Notes under the pieces: model-generated
What the model saw: only the letters and a program-made list of their open reading frames with translations
The model's database searches: none
Told to the model about the DNA's origin: nothing
Program-made: the position numbers and the translations under genes
Virus record (IMG/VR): IMGVR_UViG_3300035698_016830
Location: 41,937 to 105,936 of that record
Origin: a virus
Length of the DNA stretch: 64,000 bases
Strand: one strand, 5' to 3'
Part shown: piece by piece, positions 2,538 through 58,209 of the stretch
Layout: each line of letters opens with the position of its first letter
Position numbering within the stretch: the first letter of the stretch is position 1

Positions 2538-4393
2538 TAATTGATCAGATAGAGGCTCAAGGTTTCAGAAATCTTTATAAGCCTATGGTTTTCAAGTTAC
2601 CTAAAGAGAATGGGTTTTATTTTCTAACTGGTACAAATAAAGTCAACACAGATTTAGGGGCCAATGGAACAGGTAAAAGTTCTATATGGGATACGATATG
2701 CTACACGTTCTTTGGGAAGTCGGCTAGAGGATTGAGAGGCCCAGATCTTAAAACATGGCTGAGTGAAGACCCCTTGGCTACAGGCGTTCATTTTCATATT
2801 GGTGACGCGATCTATGTAATACGTCGAACTTGGTCCCCTAATTCATTGACTTTACAAATAGGAACAGCAAAACCAGAGAAGATCCAGCAGGATGAAATTG
2901 ACCAGCTGCTAGGTTGTAATTATGATCTGTTTTTGTTTGTTGTTTTGCAGGGTCAGTTTAATACTTTCTTTATTGATTTAAAACCAACAGATAAGCTTCA
3001 GGTATGGTCTAAAATATTAGATCTCGATGAGTGGTTGATTAGGTCAAAGAAGGCAAAAAAGAAGTTTGATGAAGAGCAAGGTGTGGTTTCCAAAGCTGAA
3101 GTTAGCTTGTCTAAGGTAGAGGGAATCTTGGAGACGTTGAAGTGGTCTTTACAAAGCCAACGTAAATTGAGAGAAGAGGAAAAACAAAGCAGGCAAAAAG
3201 CTCTCAATGAAAATAACACGGCTATAGATAAGCATCAAAAGTCTTTAAAAATGATAGCAAGTAAATTAAAAACTGTTAATGAGAACCAAGCAATAGCGGG
3301 GAGGGAGCTAGATAAGCTTGAAGAGCGGGAAGAAGTTTTATACTCTAAAATAGCTATTAGAACTCAGCAAAGGAATAAAGTTTTACAAGCTATAGCGGTT
3401 CATAAGAGTACAGAAAGAAGAATATTAAAAGAAAAGGAAAAGTTTGAAACCGAGGATCTTGAATGTCCTTGGTGTCAGCAGGAAATAACTAAAAAACACA
3501 AGACGCATATGTTGAAGGAGTTTGATAAAGAGCTAGTTATTTGTAGTAAGGAGATATCTTCTTGTAGTGAGACTGAAAAAGAGATTGATAGGCGGGTGGT
3601 AAATTTAAAAAGTAAATTAGAGGTGGTCTTAGACAAAGGAAGGACGATTGGCCGGGATGTAATTTCTTTGTTGATGGTAGATAAAAGTAAGTTTCTTAAG
3701 GACAAAGAATATCACCTATATGATATTACTCAACTGGAAAAGGCAAATGAGAATCTTAAGAAAGCCTCCAATACTGTAAAAGAAATAAAGAGATTGAAGG
3801 GGCAATTGACGGAAGCAAAGGAAGCAAAGAAAGCTTGTAAGGCTTCTTTAGAAAAAGCAAACGCTATGAGCGTATCATATAAACTTTGGATTCAGGTATT
3901 CAAAGATATAAGATTGTGGCTCGTTGATAGGGCACTAACTGAGCTTGAAATGCACGTAAATAATAGTTTCATCGAATTGGGCTTAAAAGGTTGGTCAATT
4001 GAATTCACTGTTCAGCATGAGAATAAATCAGGTGGGGTAAGTAAAGGCTTGATAGCCAAAATTAAATCACCACAGCAAGATAAATTAGTTCCCTGGTTTG
4101 TTTGGTCAGGTGGCGAAACGCAGAGAATCCGTATAGCTGTAGCAGTGGGTCTGTTACGATTGATACAATCCAGAACAGCTTTTAGTTGTAATTTGGAAGT
4201 ATGGGATGAGCCCACAGAGCATATGTCAGTGGAAGGTATCGAAGATCTTTTGAACTTTTTTGAGATGAGAAAAGATGATGATGATAAACAACTATGGATG
4301 GTGGATCACAGAAGTCTTGATTTTGGTGGTTTTGATGGATCGGTGCATTTGAATAGGACGAATAGGGGAGTTGAGGTGAAGTATGAGTACTAA
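2525..4393 (+). CDS. SbcC/Rad50/T4 gp46-like ATPase
   Basis: SMC-family ATPase partner of the SbcD-like nuclease. 622 residues in the standard order: Walker A GANGTGKSS (45-53), a long charged coiled coil (about 170-310), a zinc hook CPWC (314-317), the returning coil (320-460), ABC signature WSGGETQRIR (527-536), and Walker B with WDEPTE (560-565). The coil is short compared with cellular SbcC (about 1,000 residues), matching the T4 gp46 size class. Start ATG at 2525 overlaps the end of the preceding gene, implying translational coupling. Confidence 0.95.
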   Translation: MAKVIIDQIEAQGFRNLYKPMVFKLPKENGFYFLTGTNKVNTDLGANGTGKSSIWDTICYTFFGKSARGLRGPDLKTWLSEDPLATGVHFHIGDAIYVIRRTWSPNSLTLQIGTAKPEKIQQDEIDQLLGCNYDLFLFVVLQGQFNTFFIDLKPTDKLQVWSKILDLDEWLIRSKKAKKKFDEEQGVVSKAEVSLSKVEGILETLKWSLQSQRKLREEEKQSRQKALNENNTAIDKHQKSLKMIASKLKTVNENQAIAGRELDKLEEREEVLYSKIAIRTQQRNKVLQAIAVHKSTERRILKEKEKFETEDLECPWCQQEITKKHKTHMLKEFDKELVICSKEISSCSETEKEIDRRVVNLKSKLEVVLDKGRTIGRDVISLLMVDKSKFLKDKEYHLYDITQLEKANENLKKASNTVKEIKRLKGQLTEAKEAKKACKASLEKANAMSVSYKLWIQVFKDIRLWLVDRALTELEMHVNNSFIELGLKGWSIEFTVQHENKSGGVSKGLIAKIKSPQQDKLVPWFVWSGGETQRIRIAVAVGLLRLIQSRTAFSCNLEVWDEPTEHMSVEGIEDLLNFFEMRKDDDDKQLWMVDHRSLDFGGFDGSVHLNRTNRGVEVKYEY

Positions 4394-14888: not shown

Positions 14889-15053
14889 ATGAGAGGTAGG
14901 AATCAGAAATATGCAGGGTCTTGGTCTCGGTCTGGGTCTCGGTCTGGGTCTGGGTCTGGGTCTGGGTCTGGGTCTGGGTCTGGGTCTGGGTCTTGGTCTT
15001 GGTCTGGGTCTGGGTCTCGGTCTGGGATACTAGTGAAGGGGTTTATATTATGA
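14889..15053 (+). CDS. Ser-Gly/Arg/Trp repeat protein, copy A
   Basis: 54 residues: MRGRNQKYAG, then alternating Ser-X (X = Gly, Arg or Trp), then GILVKGFIL. The 6-base unit TCTNGG keeps frame whatever the copy number. Its TGA overlaps the ATG of copy B, so the two are a translationally coupled tandem duplication. The ribosome site is poor (GAAAGATTGATATT). Function unknown; Ser-Arg/Gly tracts are disordered and can bind nucleic acid. Could also be non-coding repeat DNA that happens to be open. Confidence 0.45.
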   Translation: MRGRNQKYAGSWSRSGSRSGSGSGSGSGSGSGSGSWSWSGSGSRSGILVKGFIL

Positions 15054-15275
15054 GAGGTAGGAATCAGAAATATGCAGGGTCTTGGTCTTGGTCTCGGTCT
15101 TGGTCTCGGTCTGGGTCTGGGTCTGGGTCTTGGTCTCGGTCTGGGTCTGGGTCTGGGTCTGGGTCTGGGTCTGGGTCTCGGTCTGGGTCTTGGTCTCGGT
15201 CTTGGTCTCGGTCTTGGTCTCGGTCTGGGTCTGGGTCTGGGTCTTGGTCTCGGTCTGGGTCTCGGTCTGGGATAT
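14917..15275 (+). repeat. hexanucleotide TCT(G/C/T)GG tandem repeats, two blocks
   Basis: Block A (about 14919-15026) and block B (about 15080-15271) consist only of TCTGGG, TCTCGG and TCTTGG units; the flanks (MRGRNQKYAG-coding and GILVKG-coding parts) are also duplicated. Strong strand asymmetry: almost no A on the + strand. Confidence 0.95.
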
Positions 15276-15310
15276 TAGTGAAGGGATTTATTTTCAGATC
15301 CACAAGGTGA
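15050..15310 (+). CDS. Ser-Gly/Arg/Trp repeat protein, copy B
   Basis: 86 residues with the same head MRGRNQKYAG and a longer repeat tract, ending GILVKGFIFRSTR. Compared with copy A the tract has more TCTTGG (Trp) and TCTCGG (Arg) units. ATG overlaps the TGA of copy A. Confidence 0.45.
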   Translation: MRGRNQKYAGSWSWSRSWSRSGSGSGSWSRSGSGSGSGSGSGSRSGSWSRSWSRSWSRSGSGSGSWSRSGSRSGILVKGFIFRSTR

Positions 15311-29021: not shown

Positions 29022-31175
29022 ATGCCAGTTGAAGAAATACAAGATGGTTTTATAAGTCACGGATTAAATTTAAACGCCTTCACGAATAAGGAAGCGGATG
29101 CGTTGAAGGTTGTTTTCTCAGATTTGAGTAAAGATCTTTCTGATCAAATACATGACTCAGAAATAGCTCAGATGACCTATCGAAAAAGGAAGCTAGCAAT
29201 ACTAAAGAAACAAGCTGACTTAACTGTCGATACTGCTTATAATAAAATGTATGAAAATCATTCTGATGTATTGGTAGGGGTAACTCTAAACGAGTCAGAA
29301 GAATCTAAGTTAATCATGAATGACGCTTTGGGTGTAGAGGCAATGACCACAACCATTTCTCCTGCTCAAGCTGTGAGGATAGCGAATAACACTCTTATTC
29401 AAGGTGAGGTAAATAAGAAGTGGTGGAGCAGCCAGACAGTGAAGACTAAGAATAATTATCTTAGAGAAGTTCGTATGGGTATGTTGGCTGGCGAAACAAC
29501 CGACGACATAGCCCGTAGAATCGCTGGACGGTTCACAGGGACCTATGAGACCGTTAAGCTGAAAAACGGCAAGACGCGACGTATAGGTAAGCGATCTGGG
29601 GGTGTTATGCAGACATCCTTCAGAAATGCTGAGGCTTTAGTGCGAACTTCAGTCCAAACAGTAGCAAATGAGGCTAGGTTACAAACTTTTAAAGAAAATG
29701 ATGATGTAATTAAAGGTATGGAGTTGATAGTTACGCTTGATGGAAATACTACTGAGATTTGTATATCGAGAAGTGGTGGCGCTTGGAATTTACAAACTGG
29801 TGAACCTCTTCCTGATTCAGCAGTCAATATCAGCTTCCCTGGTGCTCCTCCTTACCATTGGAGGTGCTTTATTGATCCTGATACACCTATATATACTGAT
29901 CAAGGTTGGAAAAGAATAGTTGATATAGAAGTTGGAGATTTTGTTCTAACACACAAGGATAGATTCAGAAAAGTAACAGAGCTTTTAAATACACCGAATC
30001 AGATGCCAGAAGTAATGGAAATATCTGTGGAGCTATATTATGGAGATATAACACAGCTAATTATTACTGTTGATCACCCTGTTATGACTAATCATGAATG
30101 GAAGGCATCAAAGCTTATTGAGGTTGGTGATACTCTTACTTGGTTTATTGATGCTGATAGAGTAGTAATTCAATCTGAAGTTATATCAATAAGTAAGAGA
30201 CAAATAGTAATACCAACTACGCTATATAATTTTGCAGTAGAAGAAGATGAAAGCTATATTGCAAAAGGGTTTGTTGTTCATAATTGCAGATCAGCACTTC
30301 TACCTGTTGTAAAAGCATGGGATGAATTAGGCAGCAAGGCATTGGCAAAGTTTAAAGAAGCGCCAAAGGGAATGCGGGCTTCAATGGATGGTCTTGTCCC
30401 TGCGGATCTAACTTATAGTGATTGGTTGAGAAGGAAAGAAGTAAAAGATCCTGGATTTGCTGATAAGGTACTTGGTAAAGGAAAAGCTAAGTTATGGAGA
30501 GAAGGGAAAATAACAACTCAACAATTAGTGAATGCTAGTGGGAAGCCATTTACTTTAGCGGAGTTGAAAAAGAAGACGGAAAAACAGGTATTTGTTCCAA
30601 AAGTAAAAGCAAGGAGTGAGAAAGTCTGGCTTGCTAGTTTAGATGATAGCCAAAAAACTATTATTAAGAATTACAGTAGTGGTGGCTATCGTGATTACAT
30701 AAATGCCCAACAAATGGCAGGGTCTTCCAAAACACTAACAAAGTATCAAAACTTAGCTTTGAAAAGAGCCGGTATTATGGAAGATGCTATTGAGAGTTAT
30801 CCTGTTGTAGATAAAACATTACATAGGGGATTGGCATTTGATAAAGGGGCAGCAAGTCAAGGAAATTTCAATAAGGTTTTGGCTAAATATAAGAAAGGTA
30901 GTAAGGTAGAATTTGATCAGCTTTCTTCTTTTTCTTCTGATAGAGACACAGCTTTGTATGAATACGCGCAACTTAATAGCAGTGGTGTTGATTCAGTACT
31001 TTTTAGCGTAAAAGGAAAATTATCTCATGCTGCTGAGATCAGTGATTTGGCCGTATTTGCTTCAGAAAAAGAAATTGTTTTAAATTCTAAGCAAAGATTG
31101 CTCGTTTCTAATGTAACTAAAAAGAAAATAAAGGGTCATACAGTACACGTTATTGATTTAGAGGCTGTAGAGTAA
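29022..31175 (+). CDS. MuF head protein fused to ADP-ribosyltransferase, with mini-intein
   Basis: 717-residue precursor. Residues 1-281 plus the stretch after the intein form a MuF minor head domain (FRNAEALVRTSVQTVANEARL; HWR/CRSALLPVV at the splice point). Residues 282-421 are an intein. The C-terminal 150 residues are an ADP-ribosyltransferase: LHRGL (catalytic Arg), SSFSSDRD (Ser motif) and ASEKEIVL (ExE). MuF proteins can be injected with the DNA, and MuF-toxin fusions are known, so the ART may modify a host target early in infection. Spliced product about 577 residues. Target is unknown. Confidence 0.9.
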   Translation: MPVEEIQDGFISHGLNLNAFTNKEADALKVVFSDLSKDLSDQIHDSEIAQMTYRKRKLAILKKQADLTVDTAYNKMYENHSDVLVGVTLNESEESKLIMNDALGVEAMTTTISPAQAVRIANNTLIQGEVNKKWWSSQTVKTKNNYLREVRMGMLAGETTDDIARRIAGRFTGTYETVKLKNGKTRRIGKRSGGVMQTSFRNAEALVRTSVQTVANEARLQTFKENDDVIKGMELIVTLDGNTTEICISRSGGAWNLQTGEPLPDSAVNISFPGAPPYHWRCFIDPDTPIYTDQGWKRIVDIEVGDFVLTHKDRFRKVTELLNTPNQMPEVMEISVELYYGDITQLIITVDHPVMTNHEWKASKLIEVGDTLTWFIDADRVVIQSEVISISKRQIVIPTTLYNFAVEEDESYIAKGFVVHNCRSALLPVVKAWDELGSKALAKFKEAPKGMRASMDGLVPADLTYSDWLRRKEVKDPGFADKVLGKGKAKLWREGKITTQQLVNASGKPFTLAELKKKTEKQVFVPKVKARSEKVWLASLDDSQKTIIKNYSSGGYRDYINAQQMAGSSKTLTKYQNLALKRAGIMEDAIESYPVVDKTLHRGLAFDKGAASQGNFNKVLAKYKKGSKVEFDQLSSFSSDRDTALYEYAQLNSSGVDSVLFSVKGKLSHAAEISDLAVFASEKEIVLNSKQRLLVSNVTKKKIKGHTVHVIDLEAVE
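29865..30284 (+). other. mini-intein inside MuF domain
   Basis: 140 codons in frame. Block A begins with Cys1 (CFIDPDTPIYT), block B has TVDHPVMT (TxxH), and the C-terminal blocks F/G read YNFAVEEDESYIAKGFVVHN followed by Cys+1. There is no endonuclease domain, so this is a minimal HINT intein. It interrupts HWR-CRS, the most conserved spot of MuF. Confidence 0.93.
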
Positions 31176-43671: not shown

Positions 43672-45088
43672 ATGGTACAGACCAAAAATGTATTATTGAT
43701 TGTCCATGACTTATACCAAGATGATTTGTGGTTCCCTTTAGGTACAGGGTATATTGCCGCGTCATTGCAAAAAGCAGGTGTTAATGTAGTTGTTTGTAGT
43801 TAAGACGTTTATCACTACACCGACCAAGAAATGATAAATAAGTATTTGAATGTAGAGTATGATTTTATTGCTTTAGGGTTTTTAGCTGCAAGATTTAAAG
43901 AAACAGTAGTTCCACTTTGTAAGTTAATTACTAAGTATAAAGGTAAAGCGAAGTTGATATTGGGTGGCCATGGTTCATCTGCTGTTCCACTATATATGCT
44001 AAAAAAAACTAAATGCTGATATTATTGTTATAAGTGAAGCTGAGCAATCCATAGTTGAGATAATGCAGGAACAAAATTTATCTACTATATGTAATATAGC
44101 TTATGTGGATAAAAATGGTAATTCACATATTAATGCTTCAAGTAAACCTAGCAACATCGATGCAATACCTTACCCGCTTTGGGATGCATTCCCAATGGAG
44201 AGTTATGCTTTAAGCACTATAGGAATAAATCAGAGTAATAATAGTAGAGGAATGCAACTAATTTCAAGTAGAGGCTGCATAAATAAATGTACTTTTTGCC
44301 ACAGAATAGGAAAGGGAGAAAGATTCAGAAAGGTATTCAATGTAGTTAGTGAAATGAAATATCTTTATGATTTTTATAATGTGACATATTTCACATTTTT
44401 AGACGAGCTATTAATAGTATCTTTGGACAGGCTTAAAGAATTTGCGCGTTGTCTTGAATTATTTGATTTACTAGGTAAAATTAAATTCAATGCTGGTGGT
44501 ATTAGATCAAATGTAGTGACTGATGAAATAGCTTCCTTATTTGAGCATATAGGTTGTCAATATATGACTATTGGTTTCGAATCGATGTCTGAAGATGTAT
44601 TAAAGAAGATGAGAAAAAATGTAACTCCTGAGGATAATATCAGATGTTTAGAAATTTTACGTAAGCATAAAATCCATGTTGGTATAAATTTTATCTGGGG
44701 TATGCCTGGTGATACGGAAAAAACATTAAGACAGAATGCAGACACTTTAAAAAAATACAATACGTATGGTGAGTTGAGGACTATAAGGCCAGTTACACCA
44801 TATCCAGGCAGTGAGTTATTTACAATAGCTGTTGAGCAAGGTATGTTATTAGGCCCTGATGATTTTTTTAATAAGTTTAATAATTCAGATTTGATATCCG
44901 TTAATTTTATAGATCTACCTATTGAGAAAATGTATGAATGTCTATTTGAGATTAACAGTGAGTTGATAATTGATCACCATGAACATATTGGTGGCAATCC
45001 TGAGGAAGATATAAAACATCTATACGATCTGTACTTCAATGATTTTACAAGTTTTCGTGGATTTCGAAAGTATGAAAGGAAAGAATAG
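43672..45088 (+). pseudogene. B12-binding radical SAM protein with in-frame TAA and frameshift
   Basis: Begins at ATG 43672 after GAAGGAGTCTG: VLLIVHDLYQDDLWFPLGTGYIAASLQ is a B12-binding domain start. TAA 43801-43803 stands where relatives have Gln (CS-stop-DVYHYTDQE). Further on, A8 at 44001-44008 shifts the frame; with seven A's it would read MLKKLNADIIVISEAEQSI. The remaining 341 codons hold the radical SAM cluster motif RGCINKCTFC and the barrel. Intact, it would rearrange or methylate a sugar or lipid by radical chemistry. Confidence 0.8.
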
Positions 45089-45090
45089 CT

Positions 45091-45828
45091 ATGAACGATT
45101 TATTTTCTGTTGAAGGTAAAAATGTTTTGATCACTGGTGGGTCTGGTGGTATAGGATCAGAGCTTGTAAATGGATTCATAAAAGCAGGTGCCCATGTAGT
45201 ATCATTCGACAAAGTTCCATCTACAACCAACTGTGAGCAGCACGTGCTTATTGACTTGTCGAATAAACAAGACATTGAGCAAGTATTCGCTGAATACATT
45301 GAGCTGCATGATAGAATAGATGTATTAATAAACTGTGCAGCTGTTACAATTCCAAATGTGAGTGTAATGTACCCACTTGAATCCTGGGATAGTACAATGA
45401 ATGTGACTCTTAATTCAGTATTCTATATGTGTAGATTGACAGGCTTACAGATGCGAAAGCAAGGCACTGGTGGTTCTATTATCAACTTCACGAGTATCAA
45501 CGCTGCCCAAGCTATGCCTCATAATCCAGCATATGCAGCTGCTAAAGCAGGTGTGAGGCATTTGACAAAATCTTTTGCTTATGACTTTGGAAAATATAAT
45601 ATCAGAGTAAATAATATTGGTCCAGGGTATACAAAAACAAAAATGAATACCAAAAGTTTGTCTGACCCAGCTGCCTACCAATTACGTGCTGATAATAGCA
45701 TGTTGGGTCGATGGGCTAATCCAATAGAAATGGTGGGACCGGCAATTTTTCTTGCGTCTGATGCATCAAGTTTTGTCACTGGCACTGATTTATGGGTTGA
45801 TGGTGGTTGGCTTTCAAAAGGAATGTGA
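45091..45828 (+). CDS. short-chain dehydrogenase/reductase (PtmA-like)
   Basis: NAD(P)-dependent oxidoreductase, 245 residues: LITGGSGGIGSELV (cofactor loop, 11-24), INCAAV, catalytic Ser in NFTSINAAQ, YAAAKAGVRHL (YxxxK) and NNIGPGYTKT. In nonulosonate clusters a homologous SDR lies beside the CMP-sugar synthetase and NeuB, as here. The precise sugar step is not known. Confidence 0.86.
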   Translation: MNDLFSVEGKNVLITGGSGGIGSELVNGFIKAGAHVVSFDKVPSTTNCEQHVLIDLSNKQDIEQVFAEYIELHDRIDVLINCAAVTIPNVSVMYPLESWDSTMNVTLNSVFYMCRLTGLQMRKQGTGGSIINFTSINAAQAMPHNPAYAAAKAGVRHLTKSFAYDFGKYNIRVNNIGPGYTKTKMNTKSLSDPAAYQLRADNSMLGRWANPIEMVGPAIFLASDASSFVTGTDLWVDGGWLSKGM

Positions 45829-45829
45829 T

Positions 45830-46507
45830 ATGAGTTTAATTTGTGCCGTAATACCTGCTAGGTGTGGTTCAAAATCTATTAAAGATAAGAACATACAATT
45901 ACTTGGTGGAAAGCCCTTATTAGTCTATAGTATTGAAACAGCTATTCATAGTATTTTTATAGGTAGGATTATAGTTTCAACTGATTCTGAAGAGTATGCA
46001 GCTATAGCTTCTAAATGGGGGGCTGAAGTGGTGGTAAGGCCTAAAGAGCTATCACAAGATAACAGTTGTGATGTTGATTGGGTGTTGCATTTGTTATCTC
46101 AATTAAAGGAAAAACCAAAGTACCTAGTTCATCTAAGGCCAACATCTCCTCTCAGGCAATCTTTTATTGTAAATAATGCTATTAGGTGTATTAATAATCA
46201 TCCAGAAGCATCGGCTCTAAGATCAGTAACACCACAAGCTCAATCTGCTTATAAGCATTTTGAAATTGATGGATCCTATTTAAAATCGGTAGGTTCTGGT
46301 TCTTTTAACCTTGATGAAGCAAATAAACCTAGACACCTGTATCCAACTACCTATGATGCCAATGGGTATGTTGATATTTTGAAAACAGCGTATGTATTAA
46401 AAAATAATAGAATTCATGGTGATAAAGTAATCCCGTTTATGGTACCAAGAATAACGGACATTGATACGCAAGAGGATTTAGATTATGCAAGATTTGAAGC
46501 AAGGTAG
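45830..46507 (+). CDS. CMP-nonulosonate synthetase (NeuA-like)
   Basis: Activates a nonulosonic acid with CTP. 225 residues: AVIPARCGSKSIKDKNI (CTP-binding P-loop-like motif, 6-22), GKPLLVYSIE, STDSEEYA, HLRPTSPLRQ and the metal-binding DIDTQEDLDYA at the end. Starts one base after the SDR stop. With NeuB it forms the core of the pathway. Confidence 0.9.
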   Translation: MSLICAVIPARCGSKSIKDKNIQLLGGKPLLVYSIETAIHSIFIGRIIVSTDSEEYAAIASKWGAEVVVRPKELSQDNSCDVDWVLHLLSQLKEKPKYLVHLRPTSPLRQSFIVNNAIRCINNHPEASALRSVTPQAQSAYKHFEIDGSYLKSVGSGSFNLDEANKPRHLYPTTYDANGYVDILKTAYVLKNNRIHGDKVIPFMVPRITDIDTQEDLDYARFEAR

Positions 46508-47765
46508 AACAAAGGTCCTACTGGTATCTTTTTATAACAAGGAAGCCTATGGAATGAGAATATTGCATTCCATGCTTGCTGATAAATATGATGCTAAAAT
46601 GCTATACGTAGAAGAAAACAATACGCAATTAATAATTGAATTGTTAAATAGTTTCAAGCCTGATGTTCTTTGCTTTAGTTTAGTTTCATCTAATTTTATG
46701 CTATACAAAAAATTGTATAAGCAAATACGAAAAATAGGTATTTTCAAAATAATTTTAGGTGGCTGGCAGCCAACTTTGAACCCTGATAAATGTTTGCCTT
46801 ATTGTGATGCTTTGTGTCGAGGTGAGGGTGAGAACGTAATTTTAAAAATAATGGAAGACTTCAAGTGTGATACATTGAAAAAAGTTTACATGGAGGGCTT
46901 AAAACCACTAGATTACCCTATTTTTAAATTTGATAACCAATATTCATTTATTCTAGAAAAAGGAAAGTTAGAACAAAAGGAACCTTATTTTGAAAACGAA
47001 CGATATGGAACTATGATAGGCAGAGGTTGTCCGTAGCGATGCACCTATTGTTCAAATAATTATATGCATGAGCTATACCCTACTTGGAATAAAACCAGAT
47101 TTAGAAATATTGATAGAGTTATAGATGAGCTGAAACTAGTAAAAGAAAAATTAAGTAAGGTACAAAGAATCAATTTTTATGATGAAGTATTTATACCTGG
47201 AAAATGGATAAATGAATTTGTGTCTAAGTATAAAAAGGAAGTTGCTTTACCGTTCTATTGTATGTTTTATCCAGGCACCTGTAATGAGGAGACAGCGGAA
47301 AAATTAGTTGAAGCTGGCCTAATTGGCGTATGGATGGGCGTACAATCTGGATCTGAACGAGAAAGAAAGAAAGTCTTTAAAAGGTATTACACTAATAGTA
47401 CTCTCCAAAACCAAATAAGAATATTTCGAAAATGTGGTATTTCTATAAAGTATGATTTCATTTTTGATAGCCCTTTTGCAACCGAAGATGATTTTATAGA
47501 GACTATTAAGTTAATAAGGGGACTTCCTAAGCCTTTTTTGATAAATATGTTCTCTTTAAAATACTTTCCCAATACTGAGATCACTGAGATGGCTTTTGAG
47601 GCAGGGCTAATACAGAAAACAAATGATGAGCTAGATGTCGATTGTCCAGATTTTATGTTAGATGTAAAAAAACAGGAAGAAATAATGAAATTAGTAAATG
47701 AATCTTCTATAAATATTTCAAAATGCAAAGAATATTTTAAAGGAACACAATGTCAAATTACTTAG
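46485..47765 (+). pseudogene. B12-binding radical SAM protein with in-frame TAG in cluster motif
   Basis: One frame of 426 codons with TAG at 47034-47036. Before it: KVLLVSFYNKEAYGMRILHSML, LCFSLVSSNF, IILGGWQPTL (B12-binding domain). The stop falls inside the iron-sulfur motif, GRGCP-stop-RCTYCSNN, where relatives have Tyr, Trp or Phe. After it the radical SAM barrel goes on (INFYDEVF, GVWMGVQSGSER, FIFDSPFATEDDF). The frame is otherwise intact, so the lesion is a single codon. Confidence 0.8.
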
Positions 47766-48415
47766 AAACAATTTACTTTCGTAATGAACAAGGTGAGTAT
47801 GATTACCCACAGCAGTTGTGTGATTACCTGGTAAAACGATACAAGCTTAGTGGTCGCCTTCTTGATGTTGGATGTGGTAAGGGTAACCATTTGGTTGCAT
47901 TTAATCGAAGATTCTTACATACTGAGGGTATTGATTCTAGGCCAATAACATCAGAAATATCAAAGTGTGATTTAGAAAAAGAGGAGTTCCCAGAACTAGA
48001 AAATGACTTTGATGTTGTATTTTCAAAATCAGTAATTGAGCATGTCAATAATGCTGATAATATTATATCTGAGATTAAGAGGGTATTGAAACCTGGTGGC
48101 AGGGTCATCCTATTGACTCCTGATTGGAATACTACGCATGAGGTTTTTTGGGACGACTACACACATGTAAAGCCATGGACAAGAAAGTCTTTGCAAGACG
48201 CTTTGATGATCCATGGCTTTACTGAAGTGAAGAGTGAGTTATTTAGACAGCTTCCTTTAGTATGGAAATACCCAAAATTAAATTATATATGTGATTTAAT
48301 TAGTTTGTTGCCACATTCGTTTAAATGGAAGGATAGGGAAGAAAAAGAGTTTAGAACTTGGGTGAGGTTTTCAAAAGAAAAAATGATATTAGCTACAGGA
48401 ACTAAACCATGCTAA
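47750..48415 (+). CDS. class I SAM-dependent methyltransferase
   Basis: 221 residues: LLDVGCGKGNHLVAF (motif I, about 37-51), FDVVFSKSVIEHVNNADNII (motif post-II), VLKPGGRVILLTPDW. Substrate presumably a sugar intermediate or finished glycan. Starts inside the end of the radical SAM gene. A 84-base gap with a short hairpin (ATAGAC/GTCTAT) follows. Confidence 0.84.
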   Translation: MSNYLETIYFRNEQGEYDYPQQLCDYLVKRYKLSGRLLDVGCGKGNHLVAFNRRFLHTEGIDSRPITSEISKCDLEKEEFPELENDFDVVFSKSVIEHVNNADNIISEIKRVLKPGGRVILLTPDWNTTHEVFWDDYTHVKPWTRKSLQDALMIHGFTEVKSELFRQLPLVWKYPKLNYICDLISLLPHSFKWKDREEKEFRTWVRFSKEKMILATGTKPC

Positions 48416-48499
48416 AGCATATTGAAATTATAGACTAGGTCTATTGCCTTAGAGCATTGTAATAGAAATTGTTGAAATACCAATGAAAGGTAAAAAGTA

Positions 48500-49321
48500 A
48501 TGATGATCGTAGCTGAAATAGGAATCAATCATAATGGTGACATCGATATTGCAAAGAAAATGATTGACGTAGCAGCGAATGCAGGATGTGATGCAGTGAA
48601 ATTTCAAAAGCGGACTATTGATCTAGTCTATACAGAAGAGGAATTAGACAAGCTTAGAGAATCACCGTGGGGCTATACAAATAGGGCGCAAAAGGAAGGC
48701 CTTGAATTTATTGAAACAGATTATTGTGCAATTAATAAGTATGTTAAAGAACTGGGAATGACCTGGTTTGCATCTCCTTGGGATATTGAATCTGTAGAAT
48801 TTCTAAACAGATTTGATAATGATTATATTAAAGTTGCCTCGGCGTCGGTTACAGATTTAAAATTACTACAAGCCATTAAAGCAACTGGTAAGAAAAGTAT
48901 TCTTTCAACTGGCATGTCTACGCAATGCGAAGTTGGTTTTGCTGTTGATGTTTTGGGCAAAAACTTGGAGTATATTCTTGCATGCACTTCAACATATCCA
49001 ACAAAACCTGAAGAAATAAATTTGAGTTTTATCCGTACTCTTAAAGATGAATTTCCAAATATTAAAGTTGGTTTTTCAAACCACAGCCCAAGTATAGCTT
49101 TTTGTAGGGCTGCTTCTGTTTTAGGTGCTGATATGATTGAGTTCCATTTAACATTGGATCGCTCAATGTATGGATCTGACCAATCAGCCAGTATTGAACC
49201 TTATGGAGCAGAACTAATTGTAAAAAATGCAAAAGTGATACAAAAAGCGCTGGGTGATGGAAAATGGACTGTATACCCTTCTGAAGAAGAAATTAAGAAG
49301 AAATTGAGGAAAACTGTATAA
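48500..49321 (+). CDS. nonulosonate synthase (NeuB-like), lacking SAF domain
   Basis: Condenses phosphoenolpyruvate with a six-carbon amino sugar to a nine-carbon nonulosonic acid. 273 residues: MIVAEIGINHNGDIDIAKKMI, AVKFQKRT, LGMTWFASPWD, DYIKVASASVTDLKLL, STGMS, CTSTYPTKPEEINL, VGFSNHSP, EFHLTLDRSMYGSDQSAS. The TIM barrel is complete, but the C-terminal antifreeze-like (SAF) domain of usual 340-residue enzymes is missing, so substrate closure may depend on another protein. RBS GAAAGGTAAAAAG. Confidence 0.9.
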   Translation: MMIVAEIGINHNGDIDIAKKMIDVAANAGCDAVKFQKRTIDLVYTEEELDKLRESPWGYTNRAQKEGLEFIETDYCAINKYVKELGMTWFASPWDIESVEFLNRFDNDYIKVASASVTDLKLLQAIKATGKKSILSTGMSTQCEVGFAVDVLGKNLEYILACTSTYPTKPEEINLSFIRTLKDEFPNIKVGFSNHSPSIAFCRAASVLGADMIEFHLTLDRSMYGSDQSASIEPYGAELIVKNAKVIQKALGDGKWTVYPSEEEIKKKLRKTV

Positions 49322-49357
49322 CCAATAGACAAGATTACTTTAAAGAAGGAATAGAAA

Positions 49358-49528
49358 ATGGCTAATGATTTTGATCCTAAGATGTTGGTGGAGCATATTG
49401 ATTCTTTTGGAAAACATCTTAATGATTTTGAAATTAAGTTTATTGCTGATTTGTTGGATCACCCACCAAGATTGTATTCCGATCCACAAATAAAAGTTAT
49501 TGAACGAATTTATGAGGAGAAATGTTAG
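49358..49528 (+). CDS. small hypothetical protein, 56 aa
   Basis: MANDFDPKMLVEHIDSFGKHLNDFEIKFIADLLDHPPRLYS... all-helical; resembles short phage proteins of unknown role. AAAGAAGGAATAGAAA before the ATG. Ends one base before the next start. Confidence 0.62.
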   Translation: MANDFDPKMLVEHIDSFGKHLNDFEIKFIADLLDHPPRLYSDPQIKVIERIYEEKC

Positions 49529-49529
49529 T

Positions 49530-49931
49530 ATGATACGTCATATAGGAATAGTAACTACAGATGTAAAAGAGTCAATGGAGTTCTATGCTATATTCGGTTT
49601 CAAGCTCCAAGCTACAAAGCATGAGAATACATCTTTTATTGATAGAATATCACGTTTGAAGGATAGTGGACTCTTGACACTTAGGCTTGTTAATGATGAT
49701 GGTGAGATGATTGAGCTGCTAGATTATGGTAAAGATACTCAAGGAAGGCATTCTTCTTTGTTTGAAATCGGTCTTGCCCACCTATCATTTACAATTTCAA
49801 GTTTTGCTGACTATGATGAGTGCGACCTTGTGCTTGTTACTCCTCCTACCATTGATCCAGAAGGGAAAGCTAAAGTGGCTTTCTGCGTATCACCTGAAGG
49901 TACTTTTATTGAACTAGTGGAGATGATCTGA
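49530..49931 (+). CDS. VOC/glyoxalase superfamily protein
   Basis: 133 residues with paired beta-alpha-beta units: RHIGIVTTDVKESMEFYAIFGF, DDGEMIELLDYG, GLAHLSFTI and SPEGTFIELVEMI; His4, Glu56, His74 and Glu130 are in place for metal binding. VOC enzymes catalyse isomerisation, epimerisation or ring cleavage. Nested in the nonulosonate cassette, an epimerase role is possible. Confidence 0.78.
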   Translation: MIRHIGIVTTDVKESMEFYAIFGFKLQATKHENTSFIDRISRLKDSGLLTLRLVNDDGEMIELLDYGKDTQGRHSSLFEIGLAHLSFTISSFADYDECDLVLVTPPTIDPEGKAKVAFCVSPEGTFIELVEMI

Positions 49932-50290
49932 TGAGTAGAGAAATGAAATTTAGGGCTTGGCACAAAGAAGCTTGTGTTATGCTCTATCAAAAAGAAACGA
50001 ATCTTGGTTCCTGGTTTGATCACGAAGCTTATCCTCAAGGGGCCTTTATTTATGAGCAAGTTACAGGACAAACAGATAAGAATGATGTTGAGCCCTATGA
50101 AAATGATATTGTGGAATGCATTAAAACAGACAGGTACGAAGCTTGTTTTTGTGTGATAGAATATCAAGCTGAGTTTGGAAAATATGTTGGCGTTCGTTGC
50201 GGGTATGCTCAAGATATAGGAATGAAATGGTTATCAAGTTTTGGAGAAAAAGTTGGGAATGTACATGAAAATGAGGAGCTAGTAAAATGA
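49931..50290 (+). CDS. YopX-domain phage protein
   Basis: 119 residues: MSREMKFRAWHKEACVML, YEQVTGQTDKNDVEPYENDIVEC and VIEYQAEFGKY with GNVHENEEL at the end fit the YopX domain found in many phages, role unknown. Overlaps neighbours on both sides. An unrelated insertion in the sugar cassette. Confidence 0.88.
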   Translation: MSREMKFRAWHKEACVMLYQKETNLGSWFDHEAYPQGAFIYEQVTGQTDKNDVEPYENDIVECIKTDRYEACFCVIEYQAEFGKYVGVRCGYAQDIGMKWLSSFGEKVGNVHENEELVK

Positions 50291-50742
50291 AACTTTTAGT
50301 GTATGATTTTGATGGCGTAATGACAGATAACAAAGTTCTTGTGACAGAAAATGGAATGGAGATCGTAATTTGTAATAGGAGTGATGGACTTGGGGTAAGA
50401 ATGATAAGAGAACTAGGGATAGAGCAACTTATTTTAAGTACTGAAACTAATCGAGTAGTCAAAGCTAGGGCTGATAAATTAAAATTAGACTCCATTTATG
50501 GTAGTACTAATAAATTGGAATCTTTAAAAGCTCATTGTGACTCACGAGATATAGAGTTAAAAGATGTCGCTTTTGTAGGAAATGATATAAACGACTTGGG
50601 GGTCATGAAAGCTTGTGGTGAATCCTGGTGTCCTCGTGATTCTCATCCAGTTATTTTAGATGCTGCTGATATGATCCTAACATCTTGCGGTGGTGCTGGG
50701 GTAGTCCGCGAATTAGCAGAAATATTAAAAGGAAGCTATTGA
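50287..50742 (+). CDS. KdsC-like HAD phosphatase
   Basis: 151 residues with the KdsC/C0-cap-less HAD pattern: YDFDGVMTDNKV (5-16), NRSDGLGVRMIRELGIEQLILSTE, KADKLKL-like part and VAFVGNDINDLGVMK (about 97-111). Relatives dephosphorylate KDO-8-P or nonulosonate-9-P and assemble as tetramers. With NeuB and NeuA it completes the phosphate-sugar version of the pathway. Confidence 0.86.
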   Translation: MKLLVYDFDGVMTDNKVLVTENGMEIVICNRSDGLGVRMIRELGIEQLILSTETNRVVKARADKLKLDSIYGSTNKLESLKAHCDSRDIELKDVAFVGNDINDLGVMKACGESWCPRDSHPVILDAADMILTSCGGAGVVRELAEILKGSY

Positions 50743-54031: not shown

Positions 54032-56224
54032 ATGAGTAGGTACCCCCTCGTAGGGTCGAACACCCTCACCGAAGTCGTTCCCCAGCTTTTGGCGCAAGGC
54101 CTTTTGGCTTTACGCGAGAATGCAGTTATGCCGCGTCTGGTCAATCGTGGTTATGATGCACTGGCTGGGCAAAAAGGTTCAACAATTGACATTCCAATTC
54201 CTTCTGCCATTGCGGCACAGGCCGTTTCTCCAGCTACTACTGCGGCAACCACCGGGACGATGACCCCCACTAGTGTTAGCTTGGAAATGGATCAGTGGTA
54301 TGAGGCCCCGTTAGGTAAAAAGGCGGCTTAAAGGAGTGATCCTTTTCGAATAATCGGATGAATTTAAACTGGAAATAAAAATGATACTGACAAAAGCAGA
54401 AAAACTAAGTACTGATTATCAGAATCATTTCCAGCAGGGAAAGCTAAGCCTTTTACAAAATAGCGTAAAAGATATGCCAATCCTGAGCCAAGTCCTGTTT
54501 GCTAACAGGAACGGTCAAGAGACTAGCAAAGTAAATAGTAACTATGAATTGGGAGCATTCCCGATGGACTTGAAATTGTCAGACAAAGAATTGAATTATG
54601 CTTTATTTGGTTTGATTTATGGTGATGGTCATTATCGTGATGGCTGGATTAACATAACTCATTCTAAACAAAAGTTTTATGTGAATTGGTTGGTTAAGTT
54701 TTGTAAACTCAATAATTTGAGATATACAGTACGATATGATGTAAAGTCTAAAGGTACTTTTGGTTCCTATATTCGAGACAAAATTTATATTAAAGTAAAG
54801 GATAGACGTCACTTTGATAAATTTGGTCGTATCTATAACTCAAAAACTGGAAAACGTGAAGTTTCTGGGTATGTCTTAAATAGGTTGAGCACATTATCTT
54901 TACTTTTTTGGTATTTAGATGATGGTAGTTTGTGTGTTAGAACCAAGGAAAATAAAACCAATCGTTTTATCCATTTAGCAACACATGCTTTTTCTTATGA
55001 TGATAATGTTAAGATTCAGAGTATGTTTAAGAAACGCTTTGATATTGACACTTTAATCCATAAAGAAAAAGGGCTTACTGGTAAAACATTGTATCGCATT
55101 TATATTAATGCTACGAACACTAGAAAATTCTTTGAAGTTATTTCAAGTTGGTTACAGTTTGTACCCATTGAGTTTAATTACAAATTCAATATGAAATATG
55201 TACCAAATAGATTAAAAGCATCTGTTTGGTACTCTGAAAGGTACAACGGTTTACTGAAATTAGCGTCCGACATCTCAAATAGAGATGGTGATATAGTCCA
55301 CGCCTTATAGAAATATAGGGACTACGTGTTTTTCTTACAGATAAAGAGTTGGAAGAAGTCATGGATGGGACTATTCCAATGCAAGCTAGCGAAGCTGTAA
55401 AGGCTCTTGCTAACAACGTTGACAACTACATCCTGGCCCTCTATAAGGGTGTATACGGATGGCAAGGTACCGCTGGTACTACGCCCTTTGGCTCTTCAAC
55501 TACTGCTGATGCGACTGGCTTGCGAAAAGTGCTCAATAACCAATTGGCTCCGTTGACTGATCGACGAGTTGTATTTGATCCTGATGCTGAAGGTGCTGCT
55601 TTGGATCTGCGAGCATTCCAAGATGGTTCTTATAGTGGATCTTATGATGCGCTTACAAATGGCAATTTGAATCGGAAGCTTGGCTTTGATTGGTTCATGA
55701 ATCAGAATGTCACAGAGCACACAGCAGGCACAGCAGCTGTTACAGGCGTAACTGTCACTTGTACTGATGCAAATATTGTGGGTGATACTGAAGTTACGAT
55801 GGTGGTTGCATCTTCTTCAGCTACTTTAACAGCAGGCGATATTGTCACCTTTGCTGGACACTCACAAACTTATGCTGTATCCACAGCAGTTACTTTAGAT
55901 GTTACTGGCGTTGCTGTTACAATTACTCCTGGTCTGACTACGGCTGTTGATGGCTCTAGTACGGCTGTAGCTGTAACTGTTAAACAGGACCATGTTGTCA
56001 ATCTTGGTTTCCATCGTGATGCCATCGCATTCGCTAATAGACCTCTTAGTGCCAACAAGGCAGATCAGCTTGGGTCTATCATTCAGAGTGGTGTTGATCC
56101 TATTTCTGGTCTTGTGCTCAGACTTGAGGTTAGTCGAGAACACAAACAAACCAGATATAGTTATGACATCCTCTATGGTGCCGAACTGGTCAGGGCTGCG
56201 TTAGCCGCACGTCTTGCTGGATAA
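54032..56224 (+). CDS. major capsid protein, P22 gp5-like, split by group I intron
   Basis: Join of exon 1 (54032-54311) and exon 2 (55329-56224), 391 residues. The junction restores EAPFFLTDKELEEVMDG. N-terminal NTLTEVVPQLLAQGLLALRENAVMPRLVNRGY and GSTIDIPIPSA, and C-terminal GFHRDAIAFANRPL and LVRAALAARL, match the P22 coat family. Residues about 230-315 hold a Thr/Val/Ala-rich insertion, equal to the position of the P22 insertion domain. Followed by a terminator, so the capsid mRNA can be made alone in large amount. RBS TAGGAGTATGTATT. Confidence 0.9.
54312..55328 (+). other. group I intron in the major capsid gene
   Basis: 1,017 bases. Exon 1 ends in U and the intron ends in G, as required. 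P1: exon CCGU pairs with intron GCGG (about 54323-54326) with U-G at the splice site. P7: GACTA (54521-54525) with TAGTC inside GATATAGTCC (55290-55299), the phage group I core signature; a final GAAATATAGGGAC lies near the 3' end. Splicing gives an uninterrupted 392-codon frame. Confidence 0.9.
54564..55310 (+). CDS. LAGLIDADG homing endonuclease in intron
   Basis: 248 residues from ATG 54564 (GGGAGCATTCCCG before it); the frame is open back to 54381, but that part overlaps the intron core. First LAGLIDADG helix LNYALFGLIYGDGHY, second LSLLFWYLDDGSLC, the acidic residues of both (Asp in GDG, DD) present. Cuts intron-less alleles so that the intron spreads. The 3' end of the frame overlaps the P7 strand. 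Confidence 0.9.
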   Translation: MDLKLSDKELNYALFGLIYGDGHYRDGWINITHSKQKFYVNWLVKFCKLNNLRYTVRYDVKSKGTFGSYIRDKIYIKVKDRRHFDKFGRIYNSKTGKREVSGYVLNRLSTLSLLFWYLDDGSLCVRTKENKTNRFIHLATHAFSYDDNVKIQSMFKKRFDIDTLIHKEKGLTGKTLYRIYINATNTRKFFEVISSWLQFVPIEFNYKFNMKYVPNRLKASVWYSERYNGLLKLASDISNRDGDIVHAL

Positions 56225-56593: not shown

Positions 56594-56731
56594 ATGGCAA
56601 TTACATGGACACCAATAACGACACCACTGAATGTTGCGGCATATTCGGAATCTGCAAGCGCAAGCGCCTCACCTTCAGGGGTATCATCAGGTAGTTTTGC
56701 GATCTTTGGAGGTGATATAATCAATGGATAA
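56594..56731 (+). CDS. small Ser/Ala-rich protein, 45 aa
   Basis: MAITWTPITTPLNVAAYSES then ASASASPSGVSSGS. Low complexity and short; AAAGGATATTTTCG before the ATG. Similar short proteins precede tail connector genes in other phages. Overlaps the next gene by 8 bases. Confidence 0.55.
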   Translation: MAITWTPITTPLNVAAYSESASASASPSGVSSGSFAIFGGDIING

Positions 56732-57128
56732 AGTATCCGTCATAATTCCTGGAAGGTGCGAACAGTACTTCCAACAAACAATAGATAGTGTGTTGGCATC
56801 TGCCACAGGCGATGTTGAAGTTATTGCCATTGTAGATGGCTATGAACCTGATCCTCCTTTAATAGCAAAAGATAGTAGAGTAAAACTTATAAAGCTTGAA
56901 AAATCTATTGGACAAAGGGCTGCCTATAATTTAGGTGTCAGAGAATCAACAGGTAAGTATGTGATAGAGGATTTAAGAAGTGGTAGTTATTTAAAAAGAT
57001 TGAAAAGACCTAAAGATGTACCACGAACAACGGATGTGCTTAAAAAATACGTGGATGATATCCATCAGAAAGCTGAGATTCGTTGCATGTCACATTACTA
57101 TGATATCTGTTTCTTGGAGAAATTATAA
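56724..57128 (+). CDS. truncated glycosyltransferase-2 fused to unrelated C-terminus
   Basis: Residues 1-76 are a perfect GT2 beginning (VSVIIPGRCEQYFQQTIDSV, IGQRAAYNLGVRESTGKYV) but stop exactly before the expected DxD metal motif. From residue 77 a different, basic segment follows (IEDLRSGSYLKRLKRPKDVPRTTDVLKKYVDD) ending in the structural block. A GT without DxD is unlikely to be active, so this is a deletion fusion or a repurposed fold. Confidence 0.65.
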   Translation: MDKVSVIIPGRCEQYFQQTIDSVLASATGDVEVIAIVDGYEPDPPLIAKDSRVKLIKLEKSIGQRAAYNLGVRESTGKYVIEDLRSGSYLKRLKRPKDVPRTTDVLKKYVDDIHQKAEIRCMSHYYDICFLEKL

Positions 57129-57685
57129 TGGGTTGTCAAAGTAGCGTCATATTAGGTAAAAATTTAACTTTTTCGGTTATGACACATGACCCAGATGATG
57201 GAACGTTGATCGATGCAGATGCTGTGCCCTCATATCTTGTCTATGAAGATGATAGTGATGTAGAGTTAGCTATATCTGGAAATATGGCAAAGCACGATAC
57301 AAAAACTGGCTTCTACTTAAAGAAGATTGCCTGCACTACAGCAAATGGTTTTGAAATAAATAAAACATATACAATCCATATTACTGCTGATGTTGCTGGT
57401 GATACTGGTGGTATAACATTTGCCTTCCGTGTTGCTTCTGCTGCTGTTGGGTCGGGACCAGTAGAATGGACGTACACTGCTACTGATTCAACTACCGCAT
57501 TGCCAATTGCTAATGCTACGGTATACGCAGGCACATCAACTTTATTAGCAAATGTAACGTATCAAGCGACAACAAATGATTTTGGTATTGCTACCTTTTA
57601 TCTAACAGCAGGAACTTGGTATTTTTGGCCTATTAAATCAGGTATAAATTTCGGTACGCTACCGGATTCGGAGGCAGTTGTGTAA
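57128..57685 (+). CDS. structural protein with Ig-like domain
   Basis: 185 residues. First half is a beta sandwich (NLTFSVMTHDPDDGTLIDADAV); second half resembles carboxypeptidase-regulatory/Ig-like domains (NATVYAGTSTLLANVTYQAT, DFGIATFYLTAGTWYF). Such proteins decorate heads or tails. ATG overlaps previous stop. Confidence 0.65.
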   Translation: MGCQSSVILGKNLTFSVMTHDPDDGTLIDADAVPSYLVYEDDSDVELAISGNMAKHDTKTGFYLKKIACTTANGFEINKTYTIHITADVAGDTGGITFAFRVASAAVGSGPVEWTYTATDSTTALPIANATVYAGTSTLLANVTYQATTNDFGIATFYLTAGTWYFWPIKSGINFGTLPDSEAVV

Positions 57686-58209
57686 TGGCTTTTATAGTTG
57701 AAGATGGCACAGGAAAAACAACGGCAACTAGTTACCTATCGGTAGCTGATGCAGATACCTATATTAATGTTTATACAACTAGAACTACCTGGACCACCAC
57801 TACAGATGACGAGAAAGAAACAGCTCTAATGCGAGCTACTCAGTATCTAGATAATAAATATGGTGGCAGGTATAAAGGCACAAGAGCAAGTGAAGACCAG
57901 GCTTTAATGTGGCCTAGAGGCTATGCTTATGATCTATCAGGCTATCTTTTAGCTTCTGATGAATTGAATTCTTATCTTACTAATGCAACTGCTGAAATGG
58001 CAGATAGAATTCAAGATGGTGATGATCCCATAGCAGACCAAGAAGATGCAGCTAAAATACAATCATCAGAAATTAAAGTTGGCCCCATTGAGGAGAAAAC
58101 TTCTTATGTTGGTGGTGGTATGACTTTAGGTAAAGTTTACCCTAATGTGGAGGCTATTTTGAAACCTATTTTAGAATCAAATACTGTTATAAAATTGGAA
58201 AGAGCATGA
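57685..58209 (+). CDS. head-tail adaptor (DnaT-like domain)
   Basis: 174 residues with TATSYLSVADADTYINVYTTRTTW, EKETALMRATQYLDNKYGGRYKGTRASEDQALMWPR: the so-called DnaT-like phage domain, found in the ring that joins portal and tail. Order and overlaps with the next gene fit a connector. Confidence 0.78.
   Translation: MAFIVEDGTGKTTATSYLSVADADTYINVYTTRTTWTTTTDDEKETALMRATQYLDNKYGGRYKGTRASEDQALMWPRGYAYDLSGYLLASDELNSYLTNATAEMADRIQDGDDPIADQEDAAKIQSSEIKVGPIEEKTSYVGGGMTLGKVYPNVEAILKPILESNTVIKLERA

Follow-up and report, generated by a model that had tools for sequence, protein, structure and literature searches.

Phage-encoded glycosylation of virion proteins is established in mycobacteriophages, according to the passages of PMC12619734 and PMC10568470 that cite Freeman et al. 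(2023). Gram-positive serine-rich repeat glycoproteins, as described in the abstracts of PMC7948813 and PMC6973325, are encoded together with dedicated modifying enzymes and exported via the accessory Sec system. Among the matching open-licence papers listed, no title or abstract beginning mentions a GalNAc-transferase-like enzyme together with a serine-repeat protein in a phage, a negative that is a weak sign of novelty for a phage system of this kind. Glycosylation of the Gram-positive proteins is initiated by GtfA/GtfB, which are of the GT-B type. Polypeptide N-acetylgalactosaminyltransferases, which we take to be CAZy family GT27, usually carry a C-terminal ricin-type lectin domain in animals.

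We analyzed a 64,000-nt stretch of a virus record (hereafter the window) in which a shortened glycosyltransferase sequence lies among head genes. Its intact relatives resemble the GalNAc-transferases and, in nearly all close loci, lie next to serine-rich repeat genes.

Architecture and setting of the fusion ORF

The fusion ORF (56724..57128, + strand) starts with ATG, encodes 134 amino acids plus a stop codon and has no internal stop, in line with the undamaged frame described in the first-pass annotation. Its codons 1-78 (56724..56957, +) form a glycosyltransferase (GT) remnant with 83% identity to residues 1-82 of the GT encoded on viral contig L002. Pfam Glycos_transf_2 (PF00535) matches residues 5-81 above the cut-off (E 6.3e-10), and the match covers profile positions 1-83 of 168 and thus ends half way. 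In an alignment, the fusion protein tracks eight intact relatives up to GKYV and diverges at their MKIDAH, the position of the DxD/DxH motif. The half-profile match and the alignment agree with the earlier statement that the GT2 part ends just before DxD. The nucleotide-sugar-binding N-terminal half of the GT2/GT-A fold is therefore present, as indicated by PF00535 and Foldseek, and the metal motif and the acceptor-side half are absent: in the alignment the sequence departs at the motif, and a profile search did not find the remainder in the record.

The 54-56 amino acids that follow the GT part had been described as a different basic domain. They are instead the C-terminus of the methyltransferase (MT) gene that follows the GT gene in L002: the last 56 codons and the stop (56958..57128, +), from YVIEDL onward, have 88% identity to MT residues 297-356. 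The SAM-binding region (ILELGV) and IIDDxSH, which both precede these residues in the MT, are absent from the tail. The fusion product should be non-catalytic, as the DxH motif, the remainder of the GT domain and the SAM-binding part are all missing from it. A search of the fusion ORF against PHROGs gave no match, and matches to NCBIfam were far under the cut-off, both for this ORF and for the intact enzyme of locus L007.

Structure prediction had been proposed as a check. An AlphaFold model of the fusion protein had a mean pLDDT of 67.7; over blocks of ten residues, the values were 73-90 for the GT part, whereas the tail reached 33-53 and its predicted fold is unreliable. Foldseek matched the model to GT-A enzymes, with a best E of 6.4e-05 and a TM of about 0.5.

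The reported capsid and connector setting was confirmed. On the left lies the coat protein gene, of which the C-terminal part spans 55349..56224 (+; Pfam P22_CoatProtein, E 3.8e-22). On the right is first an Ig-like ORF (MGCQSS..., 57128..57685, +); in L002-L007 and L009, blastp finds its relatives after the cassette. Next to it is a head-tail adaptor gene (57685..58209, +; phrog_477, E 8.7e-42). A 45-aa serine-rich repeat ORF (56594..56731, +) precedes the fusion ORF; its translation aligns with the C-terminus of its serine-rich counterpart in L002 and retains SESASASASPS and the C-terminal ...FGGDIING. The fusion ORF starts inside this relic with an 8-nt overlap that includes the stop codon, and its own stop overlaps the start of the Ig-like ORF by 1 nt (TAATG).

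Several other features of the window were recorded. The coat protein gene is split within 54032-56224 into an N-terminal part (54032-54331) and a C-terminal part (55349-56224), with a LAGLIDADG ORF (54381-55310; PF03161, E 3.1e-17) between them. The related coat proteins of L018-L020 are encoded by a single uninterrupted ORF of 374-383 aa, and the interruption resembles an intron harboring a homing endonuclease; Rfam at gathering threshold gave no intron in the coat gene. A head-morphogenesis-type protein (Phage_Mu_F) is encoded at 29022-31175, with an intein-like segment at about residues 290-421 and all three Pfam matches under their cut-offs. A sugar-acid gene group at 44063-50742 encodes a radical SAM protein, an SDR, a cytidylyltransferase (PseF-like, under cut-off), a NeuB-family synthase (PF03102, E 8e-66) and a KdsC-type phosphatase, which suggests phage-encoded nonulosonic acid synthesis.

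Parent genes and origin of the join

The parent arrangement is defined by one close relative, L002, a 4504-bp viral contig that is itself a fragment and that was the one relative found when viral contigs were scanned with the fusion protein. It carries a serine-rich repeat ORF truncated by the contig end, the GT gene (495 aa, 329-1816), the MT gene directly after it (356 aa, 1816-2886), a cysteine-containing 68-aa ORF (2888-3094) and an Ig-like ORF. The order in the window is serine-rich relic, fusion ORF and Ig-like ORF. The 68-aa ORF, which has relatives in L003, L004 and L005 (48-63%), is absent at that place, possibly through a second small loss. Both genes are thus complete in L002, at the equivalent place and in matching order, and the fusion ORF consists of their two outer ends, in accordance with the deletion remnant that the first-pass annotation had offered as one of two explanations.

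With the sequences in register, 2153 bp are missing on the scale of L002. This length is 2 mod 3, which fits the fusion of GT and MT genes that lie in two different frames. Agreement of the window with the GT gene runs to about codon 78, agreement with the MT gene takes over at about codon 79, and the junction zone AAG TAT GTG ATA (56955..56966, +) partially fits both partners when compared in register with the GT genes of L002 and L004-L006 and the MT gene of L002. Around the join, the L002 MT gene has the sequence TATGTGAT; the corresponding stretches of the GT relatives are TATGTAAT in L004 and TATGTTAT in L006. Comparison of these sequences makes a short direct repeat in the ancestor likely; the stretch shared by both genes is about 5-8 nt in the compared sequences. 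Deletion at short direct repeats is an established kind of event.

We therefore regard the fusion ORF as the scar of an in-frame deletion that joined the GT start to the MT end, with a probability of about 85%. From the gene identities, gene order and junction we infer the intact ancestral state, the mechanism of loss and the coupling. Between the coat and connector genes, the ancestor would have had a serine-rich repeat gene, an overlapping gene for a GalNAc-transferase-like GT and a gene for a sugar O-methyltransferase-like protein. A short direct repeat of the TATGT type would have allowed recombination or slippage, with the loss of some 2.15 kb and a link between GT codon ~78 and the MT gene at 56 codons before its end. 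The frame would probably still be open since the deletion is recent, and the in-frame join perhaps preserves the chain of overlapping stops and starts that runs from the serine-rich ORF to the gene at 57128. Shrinkage of the neighboring serine-rich ORF, likewise to a remnant, supports a deletion.

Searches of the whole 105,936-bp source record at E 10 did not turn up the missing GT and MT parts, and a search at E 1 gave no further member of the GT profile; the record, which is linear, may be incomplete, and this bears on the absence. An intron, a displaced gene part or another programmed gap was considered and rejected: besides the missing parts not being found in the record, Rfam at gathering threshold gave only one tRNA in the window, and shuffled sequences fold as well as the DNA at the junction (z 0.50).

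The first-pass annotation had also suggested examining conservation in relatives. A degenerate join pattern, scanned over viral contigs, matched just two unrelated proteins and gave no second contig with the same fusion. Peptide-pattern scans overlook relatives, and their negatives are weak because the corresponding scan with the Ig-like protein was empty and yet blastp finds its relatives in several loci. A scan of viral contigs for the MT gave L002 and one relative with 33% identity, L015. When 50,697 phage records were searched with the fusion ORF by tblastn, 22 records were matched, all below 60% identity and nearly all in the GT half only; the same kind of search with the intact enzyme of L007 gave no match at E 1e-10.

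Sequence conservation enters into two alternative explanations. Upstream of the join, the eight intact relatives share 23 invariant residues, all of which the fusion ORF keeps, and dN/dS relative to L002 is 0.08 over the 78 codons of the GT half (dS 1.45) and 0.02 over the 56 codons of the MT half (dS 2.43), dS values that are near saturation. The low ratios may reflect either the history before the deletion or present constraint. Strong conservation of both halves, without decay, would also be expected if the ORF were an assembly or library chimera, with the real phage having both full genes and the contig skipping them at the shared stretch. We consider this improbable: a shared stretch of about 5-8 nt is little for an assembler to span, the reading frame is kept across the join and the serine-rich ORF next door is independently reduced, even though the sequence is a contig from a metagenome, the two parts meet at a short stretch fitting both genes and the viral contigs scanned gave no second example of the fusion.

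Selection on a working small protein, such as a structural adaptor or a dominant-negative partner, is still less probable in our judgement. The open frame, in which no stop or frameshift has accumulated, the retained invariant residues, the low dN/dS in both halves and the GT half with its pLDDT of about 73-90 and GT-A matches are compatible with it, but this conservation may wholly predate a recent deletion, and the tail is poorly predicted. Furthermore, the viral-contig scans found no relative with the fusion, and relatives have full-length enzymes at the same place. These last two results also led us to reject the other explanation in the first-pass annotation, a structural adaptor made from half a GT fold, since a full-length GT2 gene is found in this place in L002 and also in 13 further distinct close loci among those listed, which is the observation that the annotation itself had named as speaking against its finding. 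An in-frame deletion scar remains our preferred explanation for the fusion ORF.

The intact cassette

The intact GT enzymes are common. At least 97 loci carry a GT-family ORF (one contributing scan supplied 80 of its 85 confirmed loci); judged by the first 300 residues of the ORF, at least 81 of these are distinct. At 800 bits or more there are 14 distinct loci among the matches listed, referred to below as the close loci. Six relatives on genome contigs (L098-L103, 29-33% identity) all come from Saccharimonadales/Saccharibacteria, Microgenomates, Woesebacteria, Zambryskibacteria or Yanofskybacteria bins; presumably these belong to the candidate phyla radiation, a possible hint at the hosts.

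A profile of eight intact relatives had polypeptide GalNAc-transferases as its best solved-structure match (6s22, E 1.3e-12, positions 5-219). The alignment pairs IDAH with LDAH, SWGNVGIEVSLRTWLCGG with WGGENIEMSFRVWQCGG and AHYFR with GHVFR (relatives and GalNAc-transferase, respectively), and the metal-motif, WG..CGG and HxFR regions are all aligned. The GalNAc-transferase motif set, consisting of DxH, WG..xE.S.R.W.CGG and a distal HxFR, is present in the intact relatives, and D83, H85, W184, G185, E190, S192, R194, W196, C198, G199, G200, H212, F214 and R215 are invariant in 14 of 14 among those listed. Pfam scans of the L002, L003 and L007 enzymes gave no lectin family. A firm GT27 label is weakened by the structural comparison, since the L007 enzyme gave a model of modest quality (mean pLDDT 64.8) and Foldseek ranked chondroitin and heparosan synthases 1-13, with GalNAc-transferases from rank 14 onward, all at low TM-scores.

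Residues of about 280-493 form a second GT domain, which is the best predicted part of the L007 model. It has no solved relative by sequence and no Pfam family passing, with three families each weakly matching 1 of 14 members. Against PHROGs, the L007 enzyme matched methyltransferase families only. The second domain also occurs without the GT2 half, in proteins of ~400 aa on other viral contigs (L010:1-585, L011-L014).

The L002 MT resembles macrolide-sugar O-methyltransferases in sequence, with matches to demethylmacrocin O-methyltransferase 8ia9 (E 1.4e-14) and to 3ssm (E 4.3e-14), which we take to be MycE. These matches include LEIGV/LELGV, IIDDxSH and VYVIEDL, and the window tail begins at the VYVIEDL point, of which it carries YVIEDL onward only. 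In the L003 and L007 enzymes, by contrast, the GT C-terminus itself carries a fused Methyltransf_24 domain.

Serine-rich ORFs were defined by at least 21 serines in some 60-aa stretch, a cut-off that was chosen after the first examples had been seen. By this definition, a serine-rich ORF of the SESASES type directly adjoins the enzyme gene in 13 of the 14 close loci, against 3.0 expected for random placement within the same loci. In the remaining locus, L029, one 207-aa ORF separates the two genes, and this case is one of only two serine-rich ORFs among the 134 genes that do not adjoin the enzyme gene. The serine-rich ORF lies upstream in most loci and directly downstream in L008 and L032. With ORFs as called, the overlap is 8 nt including the stop codon in 9 of 14; it is larger in L023 and L030, where start calls are uncertain. 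Among 67 more distant distinct loci listed, 20 have a serine-rich ORF no more than 600 nt away on the same strand, and 40 have one anywhere in the fetched stretch.

The control set was small. None of the 117 ORFs of at least 60 aa near three coat-protein relatives that have no enzyme (L018-L020) was serine-rich, and in the window the only one among 193 ORFs was a hexamer-repeat ORF at 14921. This ORF (14921-15310) contains about 58 copies of a GGGTCT-type hexamer at 14916-15271, which encode W-V and then S-R/S-G dipeptide repeats. One arbitrary DNA pattern for the serine repeat was not found in the record. A head-domain scan of nine serine-rich proteins gave a clear domain (LamG) in L030 only; the L029 protein has a T4 gp5 trimerisation match in which no stretch passes alone.

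Tentatively, and with somewhat less than even confidence, we propose that tailed phages carry a mucin-like virion glycosylation module, in which a GalNAc-transferase-like enzyme decorates the stalk of a serine-repeat protein whose gene overlaps or directly touches its own and methyltransferases cap the sugar, and which is gained and lost, with substrate and enzymes decaying jointly in the window. In the intact cassette, the enzyme would add a sugar to serines of the neighboring repeat protein and the methyltransferase would cap it, giving a sugar-coated stalk. Activity and acceptor are deduced from gene identities and adjacency, as is the location of the stalk, which is probably on the virion because connector-type genes are nearby (genes for head closure in L005 and L023 and for a head-tail adaptor in L031). 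In the window phage the enzymes are gone and very little of the serine repeat survives; both the probable substrate, of which 45 aa are left, and the enzymes look decayed.

A somewhat less probable explanation is that the intact enzyme acts on another target, such as the coat protein, the host envelope or DNA, and that the two genes adjoin only because accessory genes share an insertion site. The place does accept other genes, for example an epimerase-like ORF in L006 (named by eye), the coat-protein relatives L018-L020 without a cassette indicate that modules are exchanged, and Foldseek places polysaccharide synthases above GalNAc-transferases. On the other hand, the profile search ranks protein Ser/Thr GalNAc-transferases best, adjacency far exceeds the random expectation among the close loci, and the downstream position in L008 and L032 shows that the pairing survives rearrangement.

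Relation to known glycosylation systems

By itself, the window feature is an ordinary deletion scar, but it points to a recurrent phage cassette that is plausibly a new form of virion glycosylation. If this is true, mucin-like glycoproteins could be made outside eukaryotes by a compact system open to testing, and the window phage, as a natural case of loss, would allow one to ask what purpose a virion sugar coat serves.

With polypeptide GalNAc-transferases, the intact relatives share the metal-motif, WG..CGG and HxFR regions, but only ~200 positions are aligned and WGGEN reads WGNVG. They differ further by an added second domain and by the absence of a lectin domain in the scanned enzymes, and structure comparison gives no preference for GalNAc-transferases as their kin. 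The fusion ORF itself has none of the aligned motifs. For macrolide-sugar O-methyltransferases (8ia9, 3ssm), the likeness is one of sequence motifs in the L002 MT, of which the window tail has just the part from YVIEDL onward.

In the mycobacteriophage system, going by the same cited passages, the C-termini of capsid and tail-tube subunits are glycosylated, whereas the probable acceptor here is a separate serine-repeat protein. With the Gram-positive system, the phage loci share a long serine-rich repeat protein beside a GT, in 13 of 14 distinct close loci among those listed. Unlike the Gram-positive system, the phage enzyme is GT-A-like and sited in the phage structural region.
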